Assembly (NCBI RefSeq): GCF_014884385.1
Contig: NZ_WKFH01000003.1
Coordinates: 3,566,001-3,630,000 of the forward strand
DNA: 64,000 bases
From: Phycobacter azelaicus
Lineage (GTDB): Bacteria > Pseudomonadota > Alphaproteobacteria > Rhodobacterales > Rhodobacteraceae
Direction: 5' to 3'
Position numbers and translations under genes: made by a program. Positions 1-6,789 of the stretch are shown piece after piece. Every line of letters begins with the position of its first letter. Position 1 is the first letter of the stretch. Under the pieces are notes generated by a model. That model did no database searches. It was not told the origin of the DNA and saw only the letters and a list, made by a program, of their open reading frames with translations.

Positions 1-825
1 GGACACACCCTGCCACCAGTTGCCGACAAAGTAGGTATGGTCATCGTCAGGCTGCCCCAAAAATCCGCCTTCGGTCACCTCAAATCCGTTCAATTGCCGC
101 TCAAGCCAGTCCTGCCAGACCTGCGGCACCTCGGCGCCCGCATAGGTCAGCGCCACAGCCACTTCGGCCAGCAGATCCGCATCCTGATCAAGAAACGACA
201 CCAACCCCAGATACGTGAGGCTTAGCAGGGCCGCATGCGACAGGCCTGGATCGCGACGCCCGTATTCCGAGAGGTAAAAGACAATATGAGTCAGTTCATA
301 ACCGATCTTCTTGTTCGGAAGCGCGAAGTGATGCGATGCCTCGGTGAAAGCGCGCAGACGGTCATCCAGGCCTGAGATTGTCAGCTCGACACCGCGCCGG
401 GCCAAAAGCCGCCGCGCCTCAGCGCGCTGAAGGTCGGACAGCTCAGCCTCCGGCAGCCCCTGAGCCTTCACCCAATGGGCCAAAGACTCCCCCTTGTTTT
501 CGGCAGAGAACCCCAAATCCTCGAGATCGAGACAGATTGAAAGAAGGAAACGGTAGTATGGGCGGAAGAAACTCATCCGCCGATCGACGGTTTCATAATA
601 ATCCGTGTAGGGCGCAAGGGCCAACGGGTCCACCGGGGCACCCGTGCACTCGAGAATATTCAACAACTCGGCGTTTTCCTTGAGCCAGAACACGCTTTCG
701 GCAGAGTGTCTGCCGTTGGCAAAACTGGCGCAAAGATCAACTTTCCCATTCGCCCGTGCCAGTGCCGCGGCGCGCATGCGTCGACCTGGAAAGGACAGAA
801 TCTGGGCCGTCGATCTACGTGTCAT
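1..825 (-). CDS. Conserved helical protein of unknown function, 3' end outside window
   Basis: The reading frame is open from ATG at 825 to the left edge (275 codons), so the C-terminus is missing. An excellent ribosome site (AGGAGGTCAAGGG) sits just upstream of this ATG and fixes the start. The protein is rich in predicted helix, has no signal peptide or membrane segment, and contains the motif YELTHIVFYLSEYG near residues 195-208. From memory it resembles a Rhodobacterales family of unknown function (possibly DUF6902), which I cannot confirm. It lies 155 bases downstream of the FSSGSAP repeat protein on the same strand, with no U-tract terminator between them, so the two are probably cotranscribed and may act together. 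No enzyme motif is recognised. Confidence 0.75.
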   Translation of the reverse strand, partial: MTRRSTAQILSFPGRRMRAAALARANGKVDLCASFANGRHSAESVFWLKENAELLNILECTGAPVDPLALAPYTDYYETVDRRMSFFRPYYRFLLSICLDLEDLGFSAENKGESLAHWVKAQGLPEAELSDLQRAEARRLLARRGVELTISGLDDRLRAFTEASHHFALPNKKIGYELTHIVFYLSEYGRRDPGLSHAALLSLTYLGLVSFLDQDADLLAEVAVALTYAGAEVPQVWQDWLERQLNGFEVTEGGFLGQPDDDHTYFVGNWWQGVS

Positions 826-858
826 TCCCTTGACCTCCTGTTTGCCCCTGCTTGATGC

Positions 859-887
859 GCAAGGGCTTGGCTTGATCAGGCCCTTGC
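859..887 (-). promoter_or_regulatory. Intercistronic hairpin, no U-tract
   Basis: GCAAGGGC (859-866) and GCCCTTGC (880-887) form an 8-bp stem with a 13-base loop. It lies between the repeat-protein gene and the downstream gene. No run of T follows in the direction of transcription, so it looks more like an mRNA-stability or attenuation element than a classical terminator. Confidence 0.35.
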
Positions 888-980
888 CACACCGCGAGGA
901 ACGCGGCGCCCTTACAAGCTTCCGGTTGGGGGCAACTCCGGGCGCACCCGAAGCCACCCCGTTTTCAAGGTCAGCCTTGC

Positions 981-1340
981 TCAGCTGCCCGAGGAGAACA
1001 GCCCGGTTGCCTCGCCCTGGTCGCGGCGTGCTTCGGCACGCGGCGCGGAGCCTGAGGAGAACAGACCTGTCAGAACGCCACCGGACTGGCACCCCGACGC
1101 AATTGGCGCAGAGCCGGAAGAGAACAACGAAACAGCCTCTCCGCTCATGCTGTCCGCGTTGCGGGGTGCGGAACCCGAGCTGAACATTTCGGCGCCGCCA
1201 CCGCTGACAAGCTCCTGAGCAGGCGCAGAGCCCGACGAAAACATCTCGGCTCCCTGGCCTGCGAACAGGTCGGCAGATGAGGCGGCCTCGGTGTGTGCCA
1301 ATGCGGATGCGGTGTGGTTTTTCTTGAGCAATGCAGTCAT
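981..1340 (-). CDS. Five-repeat FSSGS(AP) protein, candidate multi-core peptide precursor
   Basis: The start is ATG at 1340, preceded by GGAGGG 8 bases away; a longer frame to 1448 has no ribosome site. The product has 119 residues. After a roughly 30-residue N-terminal part, the motif [ML]FSSGSAP occurs with its Phe at residues 34, 53, 73, 94 and 115, spaced 19-21 residues by Gly/Ala/Ser-rich linkers. The last copy ends exactly at the C-terminus as FSSGS. The five copies use different synonymous codons (TTT TCG TCG, TTC AGC TCG, TTC TCT TCC, TTC TCC TCA, TTC TCC TCG), so the peptide rather than the DNA is conserved. There is no signal peptide, and the single Cys lies outside the repeats. It could be a precursor of modified peptides, or a scaffold whose repeats bind a partner. 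Function unknown. Confidence 0.72.
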   Translation of the reverse strand: MTALLKKNHTASALAHTEAASSADLFAGQGAEMFSSGSAPAQELVSGGGAEMFSSGSAPRNADSMSGEAVSLFSSGSAPIASGCQSGGVLTGLFSSGSAPRAEARRDQGEATGLFSSGS

Positions 1341-1725
1341 GGAACCCTCCAACGTTTTTGCGTGATTGCTCCAAAACGCTGGCATGGTCGATCCGGACTC
1401 CAAAACAGGAATCTTCAATTTCAGGTTGCTTTTTTGCACCCACAACATGAACTATTACTCACAAAATTTTGTTACTTTTCAATGTTTTAATGCCATGCAC
1501 ACCTTGTTCCCACTGTTATCCACACACACAGTATTGCACAGCACCAAACCTCAACTCAAGGTAGATATCCACAAAGTCGCAAAGCGATCCCTCCGGCACA
1601 CACAACAGTTGATTCGAATCGCTTCCAAGGTCGGCGGGTGCTCTTGCCCTGAGAGACGCTTTGGGTGATAGAGCATCTACGCCGAAACACTGCGCCAGCG
1701 GGCCTGCCTACGTCGGAGACCGGAC
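1341..1725. other. Divergent intergenic region with AT-rich core and DnaA-box-like 9-mers
   Basis: This 385-base region separates the repeat-protein gene (minus) from xth (plus). Bases 1440-1500 are strikingly AT-rich and include the 12-base palindrome ACAAAATTTTGT (1461-1472). TTATCCACA, an exact DnaA-box consensus, is at 1516-1524, and a one-mismatch copy, ATATCCACA, is at 1565-1573. It probably carries both divergent promoters. I see no convincing coding sequence in it. Confidence 0.4.
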
Positions 1726-2532
1726 ATGAAAATCGCCACTTTCAACATCAACGGCATCAAGGCACGCGCCAAGGCGCTGCCCGATTGGCTGGATGAGGCG
1801 CAGCCGGATGTCGCCGTCCTGCAGGAAATCAAGTCGGTAGACGAGGCCTTCCCGCGCGAGATATTCGAAGAGCGCGGATACAATGTGGAAACCCACGGGC
1901 AGAAAAGTTTCAATGGTGTCGCGATCCTGTCCAAGCTGCCGTTGGAGGATGTGCGCCGCGGCCTACCCGGCGATGACAGCGACGAACAGGCCCGCTGGAT
2001 CGAGGCGACCGTGGTGGGCAAGCAGGCGATCCGCATCTGCGGGCTATACCTTCCCAATGGCAACCCGGTAGAGCTGGACGAGACCGGCGCACCCGTGTCC
2101 GGCGGCAAGTATGCCTACAAGCTGGCCTGGATGGAGCGGCTGCACAGGCGCGCCAAGGATCTGTTGGCCGATGAGATGCCAGCGCTGATGGCCGGCGACT
2201 ACAACATCATCCCTCAGCCCGAAGACGCCAAACGCCCGGAAGCCTGGGCCGAGGATGCCCTTCACCGCCCTGAAAGCCGTGCTGCGTTTCAGCGGATCGT
2301 GAATCTTGGCTTTACCGAGGCCTTCCGCGCCCGCCATCAGGGGCCCGGGCATTATTCCTTCTGGGACTATCAGGCAGGCGCCTGGAACCGCGATGATGGT
2401 ATCCGTATCGACCACTTTCTGCTTACACCGCAGGCGGCCGACCTTTTGCTGGATTGCCAGATCGACAAGGATGTGCGCGGGCGGGAAAAGCCGTCAGATC
2501 ATGTACCTGTCTGGCTCGAACTCGATCTCTGA
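1726..2532 (+). CDS. xth: Exodeoxyribonuclease III
   Basis: A 268-residue protein of the endonuclease/exonuclease/phosphatase fold. It acts at abasic sites and degrades DNA 3' to 5' in base-excision repair. The N-terminus MKIATFNINGIKAR, the LQEIK segment (metal-binding Glu, near residue 34), the GDYNI segment and the C-terminal SDHVPVW (catalytic His) are the family hallmarks, and the length is normal. GGAG precedes the ATG. The stop is only 7 bases from the stop of the convergent FAD monooxygenase gene, leaving no room for a separate terminator. Confidence 0.95.
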   Translation: MKIATFNINGIKARAKALPDWLDEAQPDVAVLQEIKSVDEAFPREIFEERGYNVETHGQKSFNGVAILSKLPLEDVRRGLPGDDSDEQARWIEATVVGKQAIRICGLYLPNGNPVELDETGAPVSGGKYAYKLAWMERLHRRAKDLLADEMPALMAGDYNIIPQPEDAKRPEAWAEDALHRPESRAAFQRIVNLGFTEAFRARHQGPGHYSFWDYQAGAWNRDDGIRIDHFLLTPQAADLLLDCQIDKDVRGREKPSDHVPVWLELDL

Positions 2533-2539
2533 GCCGCCG

Positions 2540-3709
2540 CTAACCAGCGGTCACATCGTGGCGATAGATCCAGTCGAACTGTCCCACCATGCGCCTCGGA
2601 GCAAAACGCCCACCGAGCTTCAGAATCTGATGCGCAGGCCAGCTGAACGGCGGGCGCAGGTGGTATTTCCAGGCATTGCTGTTGGCCGCTGCCACGACCT
2701 TTGCGGCACGTTCACTGCGACGACGCTGATAAAGCGCTAGAGCGGATGCCACATCCGGCGCTTCCTCCAAGCTGACTGAGAGAGCCCAGGCGTCTTCAAG
2801 CGCAAGGTTCGCCCCCTGCGCCATGAAGGGCAGGGTCGGGTGCGCCGCATCGCCCAGAAGAGCCACCGCTTCACCATACCAGTTTTCCGCCACCTTGTGA
2901 CGAAACAGCCCCCAAAGCGACACATCGTCAACAGCACGCAACAGATCGTCGGCAAGACCGCCAAATCCCGCAAAGGCACGGCGCAGGTTCTTGGGGTCAT
3001 CCTTGAGATTCCAGCCTTCCTCGGCCCATTCCTTGCGCTCCTGCGCGGCCACTAGGTTGACGATGGAGCCATCGCGCATCGGATACGCCACCAAGTGGCG
3101 CCCCGGCCCCATGAAGACCTGCGCCTCCGGCCCGAGACCGAACGAGTTAGGCACGATGGCCCGCCAAGCGACTTGCCCGGTGAAAAACGGCTGAGAAACC
3201 CCATTGAGCGCGGCCCGCAGGCGGGAATGCAAACCATCAGCGCCTACCACCAGATCGCCGCCGCATTGCGCGCCATTGGCCAGGTGCACCTTGGGCTGCG
3301 CGCCGAGTTCGACACGCTCGACCTTCTGCAGCAGACGCACCTTAACGCCTGCGCGCCGGGCCGCGTCGGCCAGAACACCGATGAGATCAGAGCGGTGCAC
3401 GAAGTAGTAACGCAGATCGGAGGCATATTGTTCCAGATCCAGGCGCAGCACCTCGTCGCTGCGCGCGTGACTGCGCAAAACCACGGCACGCGCGCGCTGG
3501 GAACACCAGGCCAGATCCTCAGCCAGATCCAGCGCCTTCAGCACCGCCAGCCCATTGGGCGTGACCTGCAGACCCGCGCCCACCTCGGAGATCGCCTCGG
3601 CCTGTTCCAGCACCGTCACATGGGCACCCTGCCGACGCAAAGCGATCGCAGCCGTGAGACCACCTATTCCAGCGCCTATGATGGTGACTGTCTTGTCTTT
3701 GAGTTGCAT
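2540..3709 (-). CDS. FAD-dependent aromatic-ring monooxygenase
   Basis: A 389-residue class A flavoprotein monooxygenase of the UbiH/salicylate-hydroxylase type. The N-terminus has the FAD-binding GAGIGGL (residues 12-18). An ADGLHSRLR stretch near 157-165 is the second FAD/NADPH motif, and LLGDAAHPTLP near 285-295 binds the FAD ribityl chain. Closest recalled relatives hydroxylate salicylate or 3-hydroxybenzoate, but the substrate cannot be read from sequence. It follows dksA on the same strand after a strong terminator, so it is probably transcribed on its own. There is no ring-cleavage gene nearby to indicate a pathway. Confidence 0.85.
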   Translation of the reverse strand: MQLKDKTVTIIGAGIGGLTAAIALRRQGAHVTVLEQAEAISEVGAGLQVTPNGLAVLKALDLAEDLAWCSQRARAVVLRSHARSDEVLRLDLEQYASDLRYYFVHRSDLIGVLADAARRAGVKVRLLQKVERVELGAQPKVHLANGAQCGGDLVVGADGLHSRLRAALNGVSQPFFTGQVAWRAIVPNSFGLGPEAQVFMGPGRHLVAYPMRDGSIVNLVAAQERKEWAEEGWNLKDDPKNLRRAFAGFGGLADDLLRAVDDVSLWGLFRHKVAENWYGEAVALLGDAAHPTLPFMAQGANLALEDAWALSVSLEEAPDVASALALYQRRRSERAAKVVAAANSNAWKYHLRPPFSWPAHQILKLGGRFAPRRMVGQFDWIYRHDVTAG

Positions 3710-3753
3710 AAGGACCTGCAGATTCTCCGCTTGGCTTTTCCCTTAAACGAAAA

Positions 3754-3778
3754 ACGTCGGAGCCACAGGCCCCGACGT
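3754..3778 (-). terminator. Rho-independent terminator of dksA
   Basis: ACGTCGG pairs with CCGACGT, extended by GCC/GGC around an ACA loop after one mismatch. In the minus direction it is followed by five T (A run at 3750-3754). It lies 27 bases past the dksA stop. Confidence 0.8.
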
Positions 3779-3804
3779 CGCTCTTTTCCGAATCCTTGTC
3801 GCGA

Positions 3805-4227
3805 TCAGTCGTCGCGGTGGACCTTTTCGCGGCGCTCATGACGTTCCTGAGCCTCAAGGCTCATGGTTGCGATCGGGCGCGCATCCAGGCGTTTCAGGGA
3901 AATTGGCTCGCCGGTGACTTCGCAGTAACCATATTCGCCTTCATCAATACGGCGGATGGCTGCGTCGATCTTGGCAACCAGCTTGCGCTGGCGATCACGG
4001 GTGCGCAGTTCAAGGGCACGGTCCGTTTCTTCGCTTGCGCGGTCGGCAACGTCAGGAATGTTTCGGGTGTTGTCCTGCAATCCTTCGATTGTGTCGCGGC
4101 TCTCTGCCAGAAGTTCCTGCTTCCAGTTCAGCAGCTTGCGACGGAAATACTCGGCTTGCCTATCATTCATGAAAGGCTCGTCTTCGGCCGGACGATAGTC
4201 TTCCGGCAGAAACATTTCTTGCTTCAT
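3805..4227 (-). CDS. dksA: DksA-family RNA polymerase-binding regulator
   Basis: The start at 4227 has AGGAG upstream and gives 140 residues; a longer frame to 4278 is less likely. DksA binds in the RNA polymerase secondary channel and, with ppGpp, adjusts transcription in the stringent response. A long coiled coil (about residues 20-95) carries the tip motif DVADRA (59-64), matching the functional Asp-Ala tip of E. coli DksA. The C-terminal globular part keeps only one of the four zinc cysteines (C102 in YGYCEVTGEP). This matches the single-Cys DksA described in Rhodobacter sphaeroides, so it should be functional without zinc. It has its own terminator and a structured leader. Confidence 0.92.
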   Translation of the reverse strand: MKQEMFLPEDYRPAEDEPFMNDRQAEYFRRKLLNWKQELLAESRDTIEGLQDNTRNIPDVADRASEETDRALELRTRDRQRKLVAKIDAAIRRIDEGEYGYCEVTGEPISLKRLDARPIATMSLEAQERHERREKVHRDD

Positions 4228-4281
4228 TTCGGCTCCTTCGGTCTGGCCCATAATGCTGGTCTCTTCAATTGTTTCCAAGCA

Positions 4282-4302
4282 CTGCGGCTCCCCATGCCGC
4301 AG
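4282..4302. promoter_or_regulatory. GC-rich dyad in the dksA leader
   Basis: CTGCGGC and GCCGCAG form a perfect 7-bp stem with a 7-base loop between the dksA start and its upstream region. A second, wider dyad (CCTGCTGC at 4312-4319, GCAGCAGG at 4347-4354) lies just beyond. Neither is followed by a T run. They may be leader structure or an operator. Confidence 0.3.
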
Positions 4303-4425
4303 CGTTTATCGCCTGCTGCACGGATTGTCACTACACAATAGTAAACGCAGCAGGTTAAAAGCTCTCTAATCGCGCAAGGCCAGAGGTTCGGGCGCAGACG
4401 GATCAACAAGGGATGCAGGACAGAC

Positions 4426-5268
4426 ATGCAGTTTCAGGGCACCAAGGACTATGTTGCAACAGATGATCTGAAGGTCGCGGTCAATGCCGCGGTGACGCTG
4501 GAGCGCCCGCTTCTGGTCAAAGGCGAGCCCGGCACCGGCAAGACAGAGCTGGCCAAACAGGTCGCCGATGCCCTCGGCCTGCGCATGATCGAATGGAACG
4601 TGAAGTCCACCACCCGCGCCCAGCAGGGTCTTTATGAATACGACGCGGTCAGCCGCCTGCGAGACAGCCAGCTCGGGGATGAGCGCGTGCATGACGTCAA
4701 GAACTACATCAAGAAGGGCAAACTCTGGGAGGCGTTTGAGGCCGACGAGAAGGTCGTGCTGCTGATTGACGAGATCGACAAGGCAGACATCGAGTTCCCC
4801 AATGACTTGCTGCAGGAACTCGACAAGATGGAGTTCCACGTCTACGAGACCGGCGAGACGATCCGCGCCAAGCAGCGCCCGATCATGATCATCACCTCGA
4901 ACAACGAAAAGGAACTGCCGGACGCCTTTCTGCGCCGCTGCTTCTTCCACTACATCCGTTTCCCCGACGCCGAGACCATGAAGAAAATCGTCGAGGTACA
5001 CCACCCCGGCATCAAGGAAAGCCTGCTGACCACGGCGCTGACCCAGTTCTACGAGATCCGCGACACGGCCGGGCTCAAGAAGAAACCCTCGACTTCGGAA
5101 GTCATCGACTGGCTGAAACTGCTGCTGGCCGAAGATCTGACGGCTGAAGACCTGGCCCGCAACGGTGCCGACGCCCTGCCGAAACTGCACGGCGCTCTTC
5201 TCAAGAACGAGCAGGACGTGCATCTGTTCGAGCGGCTGGCCTTCATGGCGCGCGGGCGGCGCGGCTGA
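4426..5268 (+). CDS. MoxR-family AAA+ ATPase
   Basis: A 280-residue AAA+ protein. It has Walker A GEPGTGKTE (about residues 38-46), Walker B VVLLIDEIDKAD (about 110-121) and sensor-1 IITSNNEKELPDAFLRRC with its arginine pair. MoxR ATPases act with VWA-domain partners to insert metals or remodel enzyme complexes. The likely partner is the CoxE-like VWA protein encoded at 7047-8231, separated from it by a lipoprotein gene and a small membrane protein gene. It is distinct from the second MoxR/VWA pair at 60.4-62.6 kb. The client of this pair is unknown. Confidence 0.9.
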   Translation: MQFQGTKDYVATDDLKVAVNAAVTLERPLLVKGEPGTGKTELAKQVADALGLRMIEWNVKSTTRAQQGLYEYDAVSRLRDSQLGDERVHDVKNYIKKGKLWEAFEADEKVVLLIDEIDKADIEFPNDLLQELDKMEFHVYETGETIRAKQRPIMIITSNNEKELPDAFLRRCFFHYIRFPDAETMKKIVEVHHPGIKESLLTTALTQFYEIRDTAGLKKKPSTSEVIDWLKLLLAEDLTAEDLARNGADALPKLHGALLKNEQDVHLFERLAFMARGRRG

Positions 5269-5394
5269 CCCCTGTGCCCCCTTGCCTATGGGGCGCTCAC
5301 ATTTACTTCCTGCCGCAATCTACTATCGTACTCGGGACGCTGCCTGTACGGGCGGCGCCCTGCCCAGTCTGAGCCACGCCGGAGATCGCTGCTC

Positions 5395-6789
5395 TTGATC
5401 ACATCTGCGCCCCGTTTTTCGGTCCGGTCATTGCGGCGGGTCGTACTGACCCTCAGTACGGTTGCCCTGATAGGCTGCACGGGCATGACAACCGGCAGCC
5501 AGCCCAGCCGCGCTGCCATCGCTGAAAGTACCCTGCCCCCGGCCAAGGCCTTTGGCTCATCTCAGCCCGAACCGCCGCAGCGTGCCAACTCCGATATGGT
5601 GCGGGATTTTCTGGATCTGCATTTCAATCTGGAAGGCGGCGGCACCCTGCCCGTCCTGACCCGGTTTGAAACCCCGATATCGCTGCGGCTCACGGGCGCC
5701 CCCATGCCGAGCCTGCGGCAGGATCTGCGCCGCCTGCTGGCCCGGCTGCGCGATGAGGCCGGGCTGGACATCTCAGTCACGCAGAGCGCTGACGCCCAGA
5801 TCACCATCGAAACGGTCTCGCGCAAGGCAATCCGCAGAACCCTGCCGTCAGCCGCCTGTTTCGTGGTGCCGAATGTCTCGTCCCTCGCTGAGTTCCGGCG
5901 CAAGCGCCGCAGCCCGGACACCGACTGGACGCTGCTGCGCAGCCGCGAGCAACTGGCGATCTTCCTGCCCAATGACGTGAGCCCTCAGGAGGCCCGCGAT
6001 TGCCTGCACGAAGAACTTGCACAAGCCATCGGCCCCCTGAACGATCTCTACCGGCTGCCGGATTCGGTTTTCAACGACGACAATGTCCATACCGTACTGA
6101 CTGGCTTTGACATGCTGATCCTGCGTGCAACCTATGCCCCGGAACTGCAAACCGGCATGTCCCGAGACGAGGTTGCTGCCCGCCTGCCCGGTATCTTTGC
6201 CCGCCTCAACCCCGAAGGGCAGCGCGTTGCGCCCCGTCCGCTGGCGCGCACCCCGCGTTCCTGGATCGATGCCATTGAAACTGCACTTGGTCCTGACACC
6301 CGGTTGACACAGCGGCGCATTGCGGCCCGGACCGCAGTGGAAATTGCCCGCAGTCGTGGCTGGCGCGATCACAGGCTGGCCCAAGGATATTATGTGCTTG
6401 GCCGTCTGATCCAGTCCGAGGATCCCCAGGCCTCGCTTCAGCTGTTCTCAGCCGCCATGGACGTCCTGCGCAGCCAGCCCGGCACCGAGCTGCATCAGGC
6501 CCGCCTGCGTCCACGCATGGCCGCCGATGCCATCGCGCGCGGGCAACCCCGTCTGGCGCTTGATCTGCTTGGCCCGGTGCCCGCCATAGCCACCCGCCAC
6601 GAAAACGCGGCCCTATTGGCGACGGCCTTGATGATGCAGGCGGAAGCGCTAGACCTTTCGGGGCAATTCGACGCCGCTGCCTCGGTCAGGCTGGACAGCC
6701 TTGGATGGGCACGCTACGGGTTTGGCCCGGATTGGGCCGTTCGGGCCAAGCTGCAGGAAGTGGCCAGCCTGAGGCCCCGAAGCAACTGA
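5395..6789 (+). CDS. DUF2927-type lipoprotein
   Basis: The start is TTG at 5395, with GGAG about 9 bases upstream. The 464-residue product begins with a signal sequence (VVLTLSTVALIGC) whose LIGC is a lipobox, so it is probably a membrane-anchored periplasmic lipoprotein. The segment from about residue 65 to 270 resembles DUF2927 (SLAEFRRKRR, LHEELAQAIGPLNDLYRLPDSVFNDDN), which has a zinc-peptidase-like HEE arrangement. The C-terminal half is helical and TPR-like (GYYVLGRLIQSEDPQASLQLFSAA). It lies between the MoxR gene and its presumed VWA partner. Function unproven. Confidence 0.75.
   Translation: MITSAPRFSVRSLRRVVLTLSTVALIGCTGMTTGSQPSRAAIAESTLPPAKAFGSSQPEPPQRANSDMVRDFLDLHFNLEGGGTLPVLTRFETPISLRLTGAPMPSLRQDLRRLLARLRDEAGLDISVTQSADAQITIETVSRKAIRRTLPSAACFVVPNVSSLAEFRRKRRSPDTDWTLLRSREQLAIFLPNDVSPQEARDCLHEELAQAIGPLNDLYRLPDSVFNDDNVHTVLTGFDMLILRATYAPELQTGMSRDEVAARLPGIFARLNPEGQRVAPRPLARTPRSWIDAIETALGPDTRLTQRRIAARTAVEIARSRGWRDHRLAQGYYVLGRLIQSEDPQASLQLFSAAMDVLRSQPGTELHQARLRPRMAADAIARGQPRLALDLLGPVPAIATRHENAALLATALMMQAEALDLSGQFDAAASVRLDSLGWARYGFGPDWAVRAKLQEVASLRPRSN

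Follow-up and report, generated by a model that had tools for sequence, protein, structure and literature searches.

What is the product of a small bacterial gene whose protein spells the same five residues five times and ends on the last of them? The gene lies near the left end of the window, by which we mean the whole 64,000-nucleotide stretch of Phycobacter azelaicus DNA analysed here. Its neighbour encodes a protein of the family DUF6902. In the explanation that we consider best, to which we give a probability of roughly 0.57, the gene product is a multi-core peptide precursor made on the ribosome, and DUF6902 is a maturation protein dedicated to it. The features on which the argument draws are these.

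1..825, minus strand: DUF6902 gene (PF21843, assigned by Pfam), first 275 of 368 codons, continuing past the left edge
981..1340, minus strand: multi-core repeat protein, candidate precursor, 119 aa (ORF and orthologues)
1242..1340, minus strand: leader, residues 1-33 (MTALLKK...)
1227..1241, minus strand: core 1 FSSGS, residues 34-38
1170..1184, minus strand: core 2 FSSGS, residues 53-57
1110..1124, minus strand: core 3 FSSGS, residues 73-77
1047..1061, minus strand: core 4 FSSGS, residues 94-98
984..998, minus strand: core 5 FSSGS, residues 115-119, with the stop at 981-983 immediately after
1516..1524, minus strand: exact DnaA-box sequence TGTGGATAA, 184 nt upstream of the start codon
1565..1573, minus strand: one-mismatch box TGTGGATAT, 233 nt upstream
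1611..1620, no strand: GATTCGAATC, two GANTC sites, in a stretch beside xth that is enriched in GANTC in cassette loci
1726..2532, plus strand: xth (exodeoxyribonuclease III), conserved divergent neighbour marking the site, outside the cassette

The repeat gene and its relatives

The gene is read from 1340 down to 981 (119 codons and a stop), and a ribosome-binding site, CCCTCC at 1345-1350 or GGAGGG on the coding strand, stands just ahead of its ATG. A sequence-only reading of this DNA had described five FSSGS copies spaced 19-21 residues apart with the final copy at the stop, a leader-like start of about 30 residues, Ala-Pro missing only after the final copy, and synonymous codons that differ in every copy. 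These descriptions hold on the 119-residue minus-strand frame: the cores are spaced by 19, 20, 21 and 21 residues, 33 residues precede the first of them, AP follows cores 1-4 and the stop codon core 5, and the five FSSGS codon strings are all distinct, with 32 of 50 same-residue codon pairs differing. The 12 residues ahead of each FSSGS are 23% identical among the copies. When the residues of the protein were shuffled 20,000 times, no 5-mer occurred five times, and the maximum of four copies was reached in 3 shuffles. Pfam and NCBIfam held no model matching the protein at E 1, and Rfam at its gathering thresholds gave no match in positions 1-6000 of the window or in four loci. The window's own genome returned one match to the protein at E 0.001, so the gene is single-copy at this sensitivity.

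Relatives were collected in two partly overlapping sets. Set 1 comprises the best 80 of 343 DUF6902 relatives from a scan of GTDB contigs and spans Leisingera, Phaeobacter, Ruegeria, Shimia, Roseovarius and other Rhodobacterales. Set 2 comprises 82 further loci found with the Pfam HMM; 15 of its 76 DUF6902 sequences repeat set-1 members, which leaves 61, and the 156-tip tree used below includes these repeats. Three loci in which the core could not be assigned (L190, L225, L227) and three short or identical sequences were dropped before the 156 precursor/DUF6902 pairs were formed.

All 80 set-1 loci have the repeat protein immediately upstream of DUF6902, and so do 81 of the 82 set-2 loci, all but G528. 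Among 147 relatives 28 carry DUF6902, 27 of them over the Pfam cut-off, and in 26 of these 27 loci, all but that of G042, the repeat protein is again immediately upstream; contig ends truncate three loci (L054, L059, L067). In a sample of nearly one genome per genus of the bacterial family, DUF6902 occurs in 108 of 394 genomes (107 of 393 genera), and 105 of the 107 with an examined locus have the repeat protein, G380 being excluded for its contig end. Searches with the precursor itself gave convincing matches in 16 of the 21 genomes matched, all 16 carrying DUF6902, and no match in six genomes without DUF6902. Weak matches in G025, G029, G037, G053 and G094 (E 0.002-0.01) were rejected; four contain internal stops, and the one in G094 is a 108-codon frame overlapping a longer ORF.

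The surroundings are equally regular. DUF6902 follows directly downstream of the repeat gene on the same strand; beyond it come an EamA-type transporter, then an iron-sulphur gene on the other strand, which we call HesB-type from its sequence, dgt and argS. The cassette is chromosomal, between xth and the HesB-type gene and dgt, and the 80 set-1 loci share, to the extent that their genes could be located, one gene order: xth, repeat protein, DUF6902, (EamA), HesB, dgt. The EamA-type gene was found in 63 of 80 set-1 loci and in 59 of 82 set-2 loci, several of which are cut by their ends. Because it went undetected in 17 set-1 loci, in 16 of which HesB and dgt come next, the transporter cannot be essential; EamA, xth, HesB and dgt were located by tblastn with the proteins of the window genome, so that diverged ones may be missed. 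The sequence-only reading had proposed to look left of the window for a modifying enzyme or protease. A candidate partner, DUF6902, does lie directly left of the gene. The cassette holds neither a protease nor a known RiPP enzyme; a protease may be encoded at another site.

The anatomy of the family can be described from 601 repeat units of set 1, whose consensus is G-[DE]-[AGL]-[TV]-[EQ]-[ML]-F-[ST]-S-G-[SL]-[AGTS]-P. The G at position -6 is present in 574 of the 601 units, and the spacer G-[DE]-x-[VT]-x-[ML] ahead of the core is the part kept between species. Many relatives have a leader that begins with a form of M[TSN]A[LQ]. The 80 set-1 loci have 3-20 core copies per gene (median 8, some counts taking in one extra near-match); two-copy members also exist, and the range for the whole family is 2-20. 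Spacing in set 1 is mostly 20-21 residues, with 8-residue units in some genes, and the gene's own core forms the exact C-terminal end in 70 of 80 proteins. Pfam matches on the arrays of relatives (UBA_HYPK, CH, DUF7372 and others), some of them above their cut-off, were set aside as repeat noise, as no stretch passes alone. Masked N stretches lie within or beside the arrays of L190, L195, L223 and L225.

Which part of the unit is conserved depends on the scale of the comparison. When units were defined by the spacer (68 of 80 genes with at least three units, a few false units included), the within-gene identity was 0.958 for the five residues after the spacer and 0.281 for the six residues before it, and all 5-mers after the spacer were identical in 50 of the 68 genes. 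Units defined by the core gave 0.979 for the core, a value inflated by the choice of units, which could depart from the core of their gene at no more than one position, and 0.259 for the distal spacer. Between species the core changes: 43 cores occur among 141 non-redundant pairs, FSSGS in 52 of them, and others include FTSGS, FTSWS, FTSGL, FTTSM, MMCCS, MPTSN and AQSFS. The prediction that repeat number varies under a conserved FSSGS is thus correct for the number and, within most genes, for the retention of the core; FSSGS as the conserved part of the whole family has to be given up, the spacer taking that role. Homologues lacking repeat conservation would have spoken against the sequence-only reading, and the relatives keep their repeats, with a core about 96% identical within a gene.

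A switch between near relatives is seen in L087 and L094, whose DUF6902 proteins differ by 15 substitutions (38 of 381 alignment columns differ, 19 from a start-codon difference at extraction and 4 from an indel). The six copies of L087 are all FSSGS, and the seven of L094 all FTSGS; at the last copy, ACT stands in place of TCT and the other codons are unchanged. Four of the seven copies in L094 carry one and the same codon string, and the uniformity of that array is therefore due in part to recent copying. Across 79 genes, 52% of same-residue core codon pairs differ (units by core). Selection, and in part copying, therefore keeps most copies of a gene to a single spelling, and an entire array can switch its spelling. 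Five genes (L096, L097, L120, L176, L185) mix cores. In L096, FTSGS alternates with FTTSA, and in L185 FCSWSGP alternates with FSSLSTP; these two arrays are possible two-product precursors.

Could the array be a recent DNA repeat, or a frame artefact, with no function as a peptide? Tandem arrays can expand, as the genes with up to 20 copies and the partly identical codon strings of L094 illustrate, and on the opposite strand an open frame of 179 codons spans most of the repeat gene. We regard this explanation as very improbable, given the synonymous divergence under identical cores, the ribosome-binding site and the place beside DUF6902 in nearly every examined DUF6902 genome (105/107). Translation of the window frame is supported by its codon pattern and its orthologues.

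A second explanation is homotypic assembly, in which the cores stack together as a β-solenoid, a functional amyloid or a condensate. Stacking requires the copies of one protein to match but leaves them free to drift from species to species, which fits the observed uniformity and drift; the period of about 21 residues, the abundance of F, S, T and G in the cores, and the β strands of the AlphaFold model agree with it. These strands are weak and of low confidence in a model with a pLDDT of only 46, which makes an unstructured substrate likely. Two-copy members, 8-residue units and distal spacers of 26% identity are also difficult to reconcile with stacking, and assembly leaves the pairing with a toroid protein of polar interior unexplained. 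We consider it an improbable explanation.

The partner protein DUF6902

The partner is assigned to DUF6902 by Pfam at 5.1e-129, with 430.6 bits against a gathering cut-off of 27. It also matches PF21836 (DUF6895) weakly, as a distant relative, and Pfam lists both PF21843 and PF21836 as of function unknown; the full-length gene was read in L031. NCBIfam has no family for DUF6902. Neither it nor the repeat protein was matched in PHROGs or by any PADLOC family at E 0.01, which gives no sign of an anti-phage defence system, and no DUF6902 relative was found among viral contigs or in the plasmid and phage collections. The family databases searched show no link of DUF6902 or DUF6895 to a repeat peptide.

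The structural model of DUF6902 (pLDDT 90.8) is predicted to be an α/α toroid. Toroid-type matches, obtained in a comparison limited to families in the VIA-align list, were protein prenyltransferase β subunits, class II terpene cyclases, C3d and cobalamin binders; a few rows were translocon entries. Foldseek gave no match at E 0.001, and no PDB sequence was significant, the best being an antibody chain at E 0.56. The inner helices, which are alternate helices of the predicted toroid, hold most of the invariant positions (39 of 87, compared with 8 of 89 on the outer helices), and 20 charged or amide invariants are found on inner helices and 1 on an outer helix. The residues Glu-53, His-180, Asp-217, Glu-221, Asp-260 and His-263 are kept in all 156 DUF6902 proteins that accompany a precursor. 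The search patterns of set 1 (YELTH or DLL[AS]E) favour Glu-177, His-180, Asp-217 and Glu-221. The HMM-found subset of set 2 is free of that bias, and there the same six residues are kept in 76 of 76. The two homologues found without a precursor, in G042 and G528, have both lost Glu-53, His-180 and Asp-217, the former being diverged and uncertainly aligned (gaps at Asn-171 and Lys-173). The sequences themselves thus establish the architecture, the pairing, the uniformity of the core within a gene and its change between species, together with this loss of cavity residues in both precursor-less homologues. The two loci, L074 in G042 and L227 in G528, also have no EamA-type gene, and they are possible natural losses of the system, as judged from the replaced residues.

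Does DUF6902 change with the core that it accompanies? In a simple parsimony test over 297 columns the best co-variation had p 0.0031, which is not significant after correction. Because DUF6902 accompanies dozens of cores with no detectable co-change, another component probably reads the core.

This result also bears on the possibility that the repeat protein is an uncut scaffold, each repeat of which binds one DUF6902 or another partner, so that the array is multivalent. A regular period of 20-21 residues, a constant G-[DE]-x-[VT]-x-[ML]-F element and constant pairing with DUF6902 are what such a scaffold would show, and C3d and the cobalamin binders, which are binding domains, are among the toroid matches. 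Copy numbers of 2-20 and 8-residue units argue against it, and so does a core that is nearly identical within a gene yet does not track DUF6902. Moreover, the residues lost together with the precursor are acidic or histidine and look like those of an active site. We judge the scaffold to be unlikely, albeit the rival with the most in its favour among those that leave the protein uncut.

The distant family DUF6895 was searched across the class, and 7 of 240 genomes matched, 4 over the cut-off. In the only one of the latter that lies outside the bacterial family, G063, inspection by eye of ORFs of at least 50 aa over 3.6 kb revealed no repeat peptide. Its DUF6895-like protein (L159, 1108-2238) keeps LTH..FY and DVDLMLEL-like motifs, and a neighbouring frame resembles, by eye, a TauD-type dioxygenase.

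A candidate pathway and known peptide systems

How might precursor and partner work together? If the gene is a multi-core precursor, DUF6902 would dock on the leader and/or on the repeated G-[DE]-x-[VT]-x-[ML]-F element, and would act on every short core inside its central cavity, where a metal is possibly held by His-180, Asp-217, Glu-221, Asp-260 and His-263. The cores would then be cut out, with the [AGTS]-P after the core as the likely start of the spacer, and the EamA-type transporter, where present, would export the small product. Most simply, the core would be read by a receptor, in which case a species-typed signal is its most likely use.

Several observations count against maturation. 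No chemistry is evidently common to FSSGS, FTSWS, MMCCS and MPTSN, and most cores have no Cys. The very regular period and the strand hints of the AlphaFold model suit an assembled repeat protein, no enzyme for cleavage or of known RiPP type accompanies the pair in the cassette, and some genes mix cores. The earlier proposal of a precursor of modified peptides with several cores is partly supported: its two comparative predictions came true, and such a precursor, with its putative modification, cleavage and export, stays the leading inference.

Among known systems, the closest are the multi-core RiPP precursors, such as those of the cyanobactin PatE type and the fungal dikaritin UstA type. The cassette shares with them a leader, repeated cores between conserved stretches, a core that varies with the producer and a dedicated neighbour gene. 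It differs in the mostly uniform copies of each gene, in the lack of a Pfam or NCBIfam match for the repeat protein and of a known RiPP enzyme or protease in the cassette, and in having DUF6902 as the partner. A ribosomal precursor with leader and repeated cores was found, as was a conserved stretch adjoining the variable core, which would serve for recognition; DUF6902, with its conserved polar interior, is the candidate enzyme alongside. Because RiPPs are defined by modification and cleavage, we do not claim membership of that class for the cassette. On our best reading, the cassette looks like a new RiPP-like multi-core peptide system.

Toroid proteins with established chemistry were also considered for the partner. 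LanC, which is absent from the list of structural matches, is an α/α toroid with the zinc ligands Cys-Cys-His. DUF6902 has no strictly invariant Cys among 57 sequences; Cys-60 and Cys-223 are conserved in 90% or more and so are nearly invariant. A lanthipeptide cyclase was rejected, as FSSGS and most other cores have no Cys for thioether formation. The substrates of CaaX prenyltransferases carry a Cys near the C terminus. The precursor ends in FSSGS and most cores are without Cys, so this activity was rejected as well; the toroid-type match to the prenyltransferase β subunit is one of common fold, which shows no function.

Two further systems resemble the precursor in outline. Yeast pro-α-factor is a pheromone precursor with repeated copies, and like it the repeat protein carries several copies of a short, species-typed peptide, but no secretion signal is apparent by eye in its leader. 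The curli protein CsgA has a Sec signal peptide and is served by csg export genes. It too has about five repeats of some 20 residues with one repeat at the C terminus. Curli were rejected, since the leader has no hydrophobic segment by eye and the neighbours are xth, DUF6902, EamA, a HesB-type gene and dgt.

A shared and testable role is thereby offered for a repeat peptide that belongs to no curated family and for DUF6902. One core per gene, switching as a whole between species with no accompanying DUF6902 change, is an unusual natural experiment on how the copies of a peptide are kept uniform. A signal or modified peptide, should the gene yield one, would be a widespread chemistry of Rhodobacterales that has no name in the databases searched.

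Upstream sites and possible timing by replication

The region between the repeat gene and xth contains sites of two kinds. In a count of frequent 8-mers, TGTGGATA was found upstream of the precursor in 80 of 148 loci, and TGTGGATAA is the DnaA-box consensus. The density of exact boxes is 2.2 per kb over the 400 nt upstream, compared with 0.0014 per kb in the remainder of these loci. Of 79 loci, 47 have an exact box; 66 carry a box that departs from the consensus at no more than one position, 52 carry two or more, and 13 carry none. These counts are lowered by start codons that are mis-set for some precursors (e.g. L098). In many loci two boxes of one orientation lie near -186 and -110, about 76 nt apart; Leisingera has them near -186 and -163, and the window at -233 and -184, 49 nt apart.

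Are the boxes a property of xth? With at most one mismatch, a box is present within 500 nt outward of xth in 66 of 78 set-1 loci and outward of xth in 56 of 79 set-2 loci. At 21 control xth sites (20 genomes) without the full cassette there was none, the controls including G042 with its diverged DUF6902 and one second, 44% identical xth copy. The boxes are also not simply those of a replication origin, because dnaA lies at least 1.09 Mb from the cassette, circle included, in the eight genomes where the distance could be told (G000, G002, G058, G382, G428, G429, G555, G565); an origin was thus discarded as the reason for the boxes.

GANTC, the methylation site of CcrM in alphaproteobacteria, is enriched about seven-fold: the first 350 nt have 8.1 per kb and the loci as a whole 1.1 per kb. 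The 21 control sites have 8 in total. Sites of this kind were noticed some 230-330 nt upstream of the precursors in L076-L155. Control of xth or of the cassette by CcrM/GcrA through them is possible, and the putative DnaA and GANTC sites could serve xth as well.

The simplest reading of the boxes suggests expression of the cassette linked to replication or the cell cycle. DnaA and GANTC methylation would then control its timing by replication, a step read from consensus sequences only. If the product is a signal or modified peptide, the DnaA-box-like sites would tie the system to the replication cycle. Taken to its full extent, this leads to a new class of ribosomal peptide signals, in which DUF6902 toroid enzymes would mature many copies of one species-typed 5-residue core from a single precursor. 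DnaA and GANTC methylation would time the operon, and cells would announce or regulate their replication state with a peptide able to change its whole spelling between close species. We offer this extension tentatively and think it rather doubtful as a whole.

A further conserved element, TGCAAGCG, stands about 50 nt upstream of the precursor start in 23 of 78 set-1 loci. In L227 it is found just ahead of DUF6902, although the precursor is missing there.
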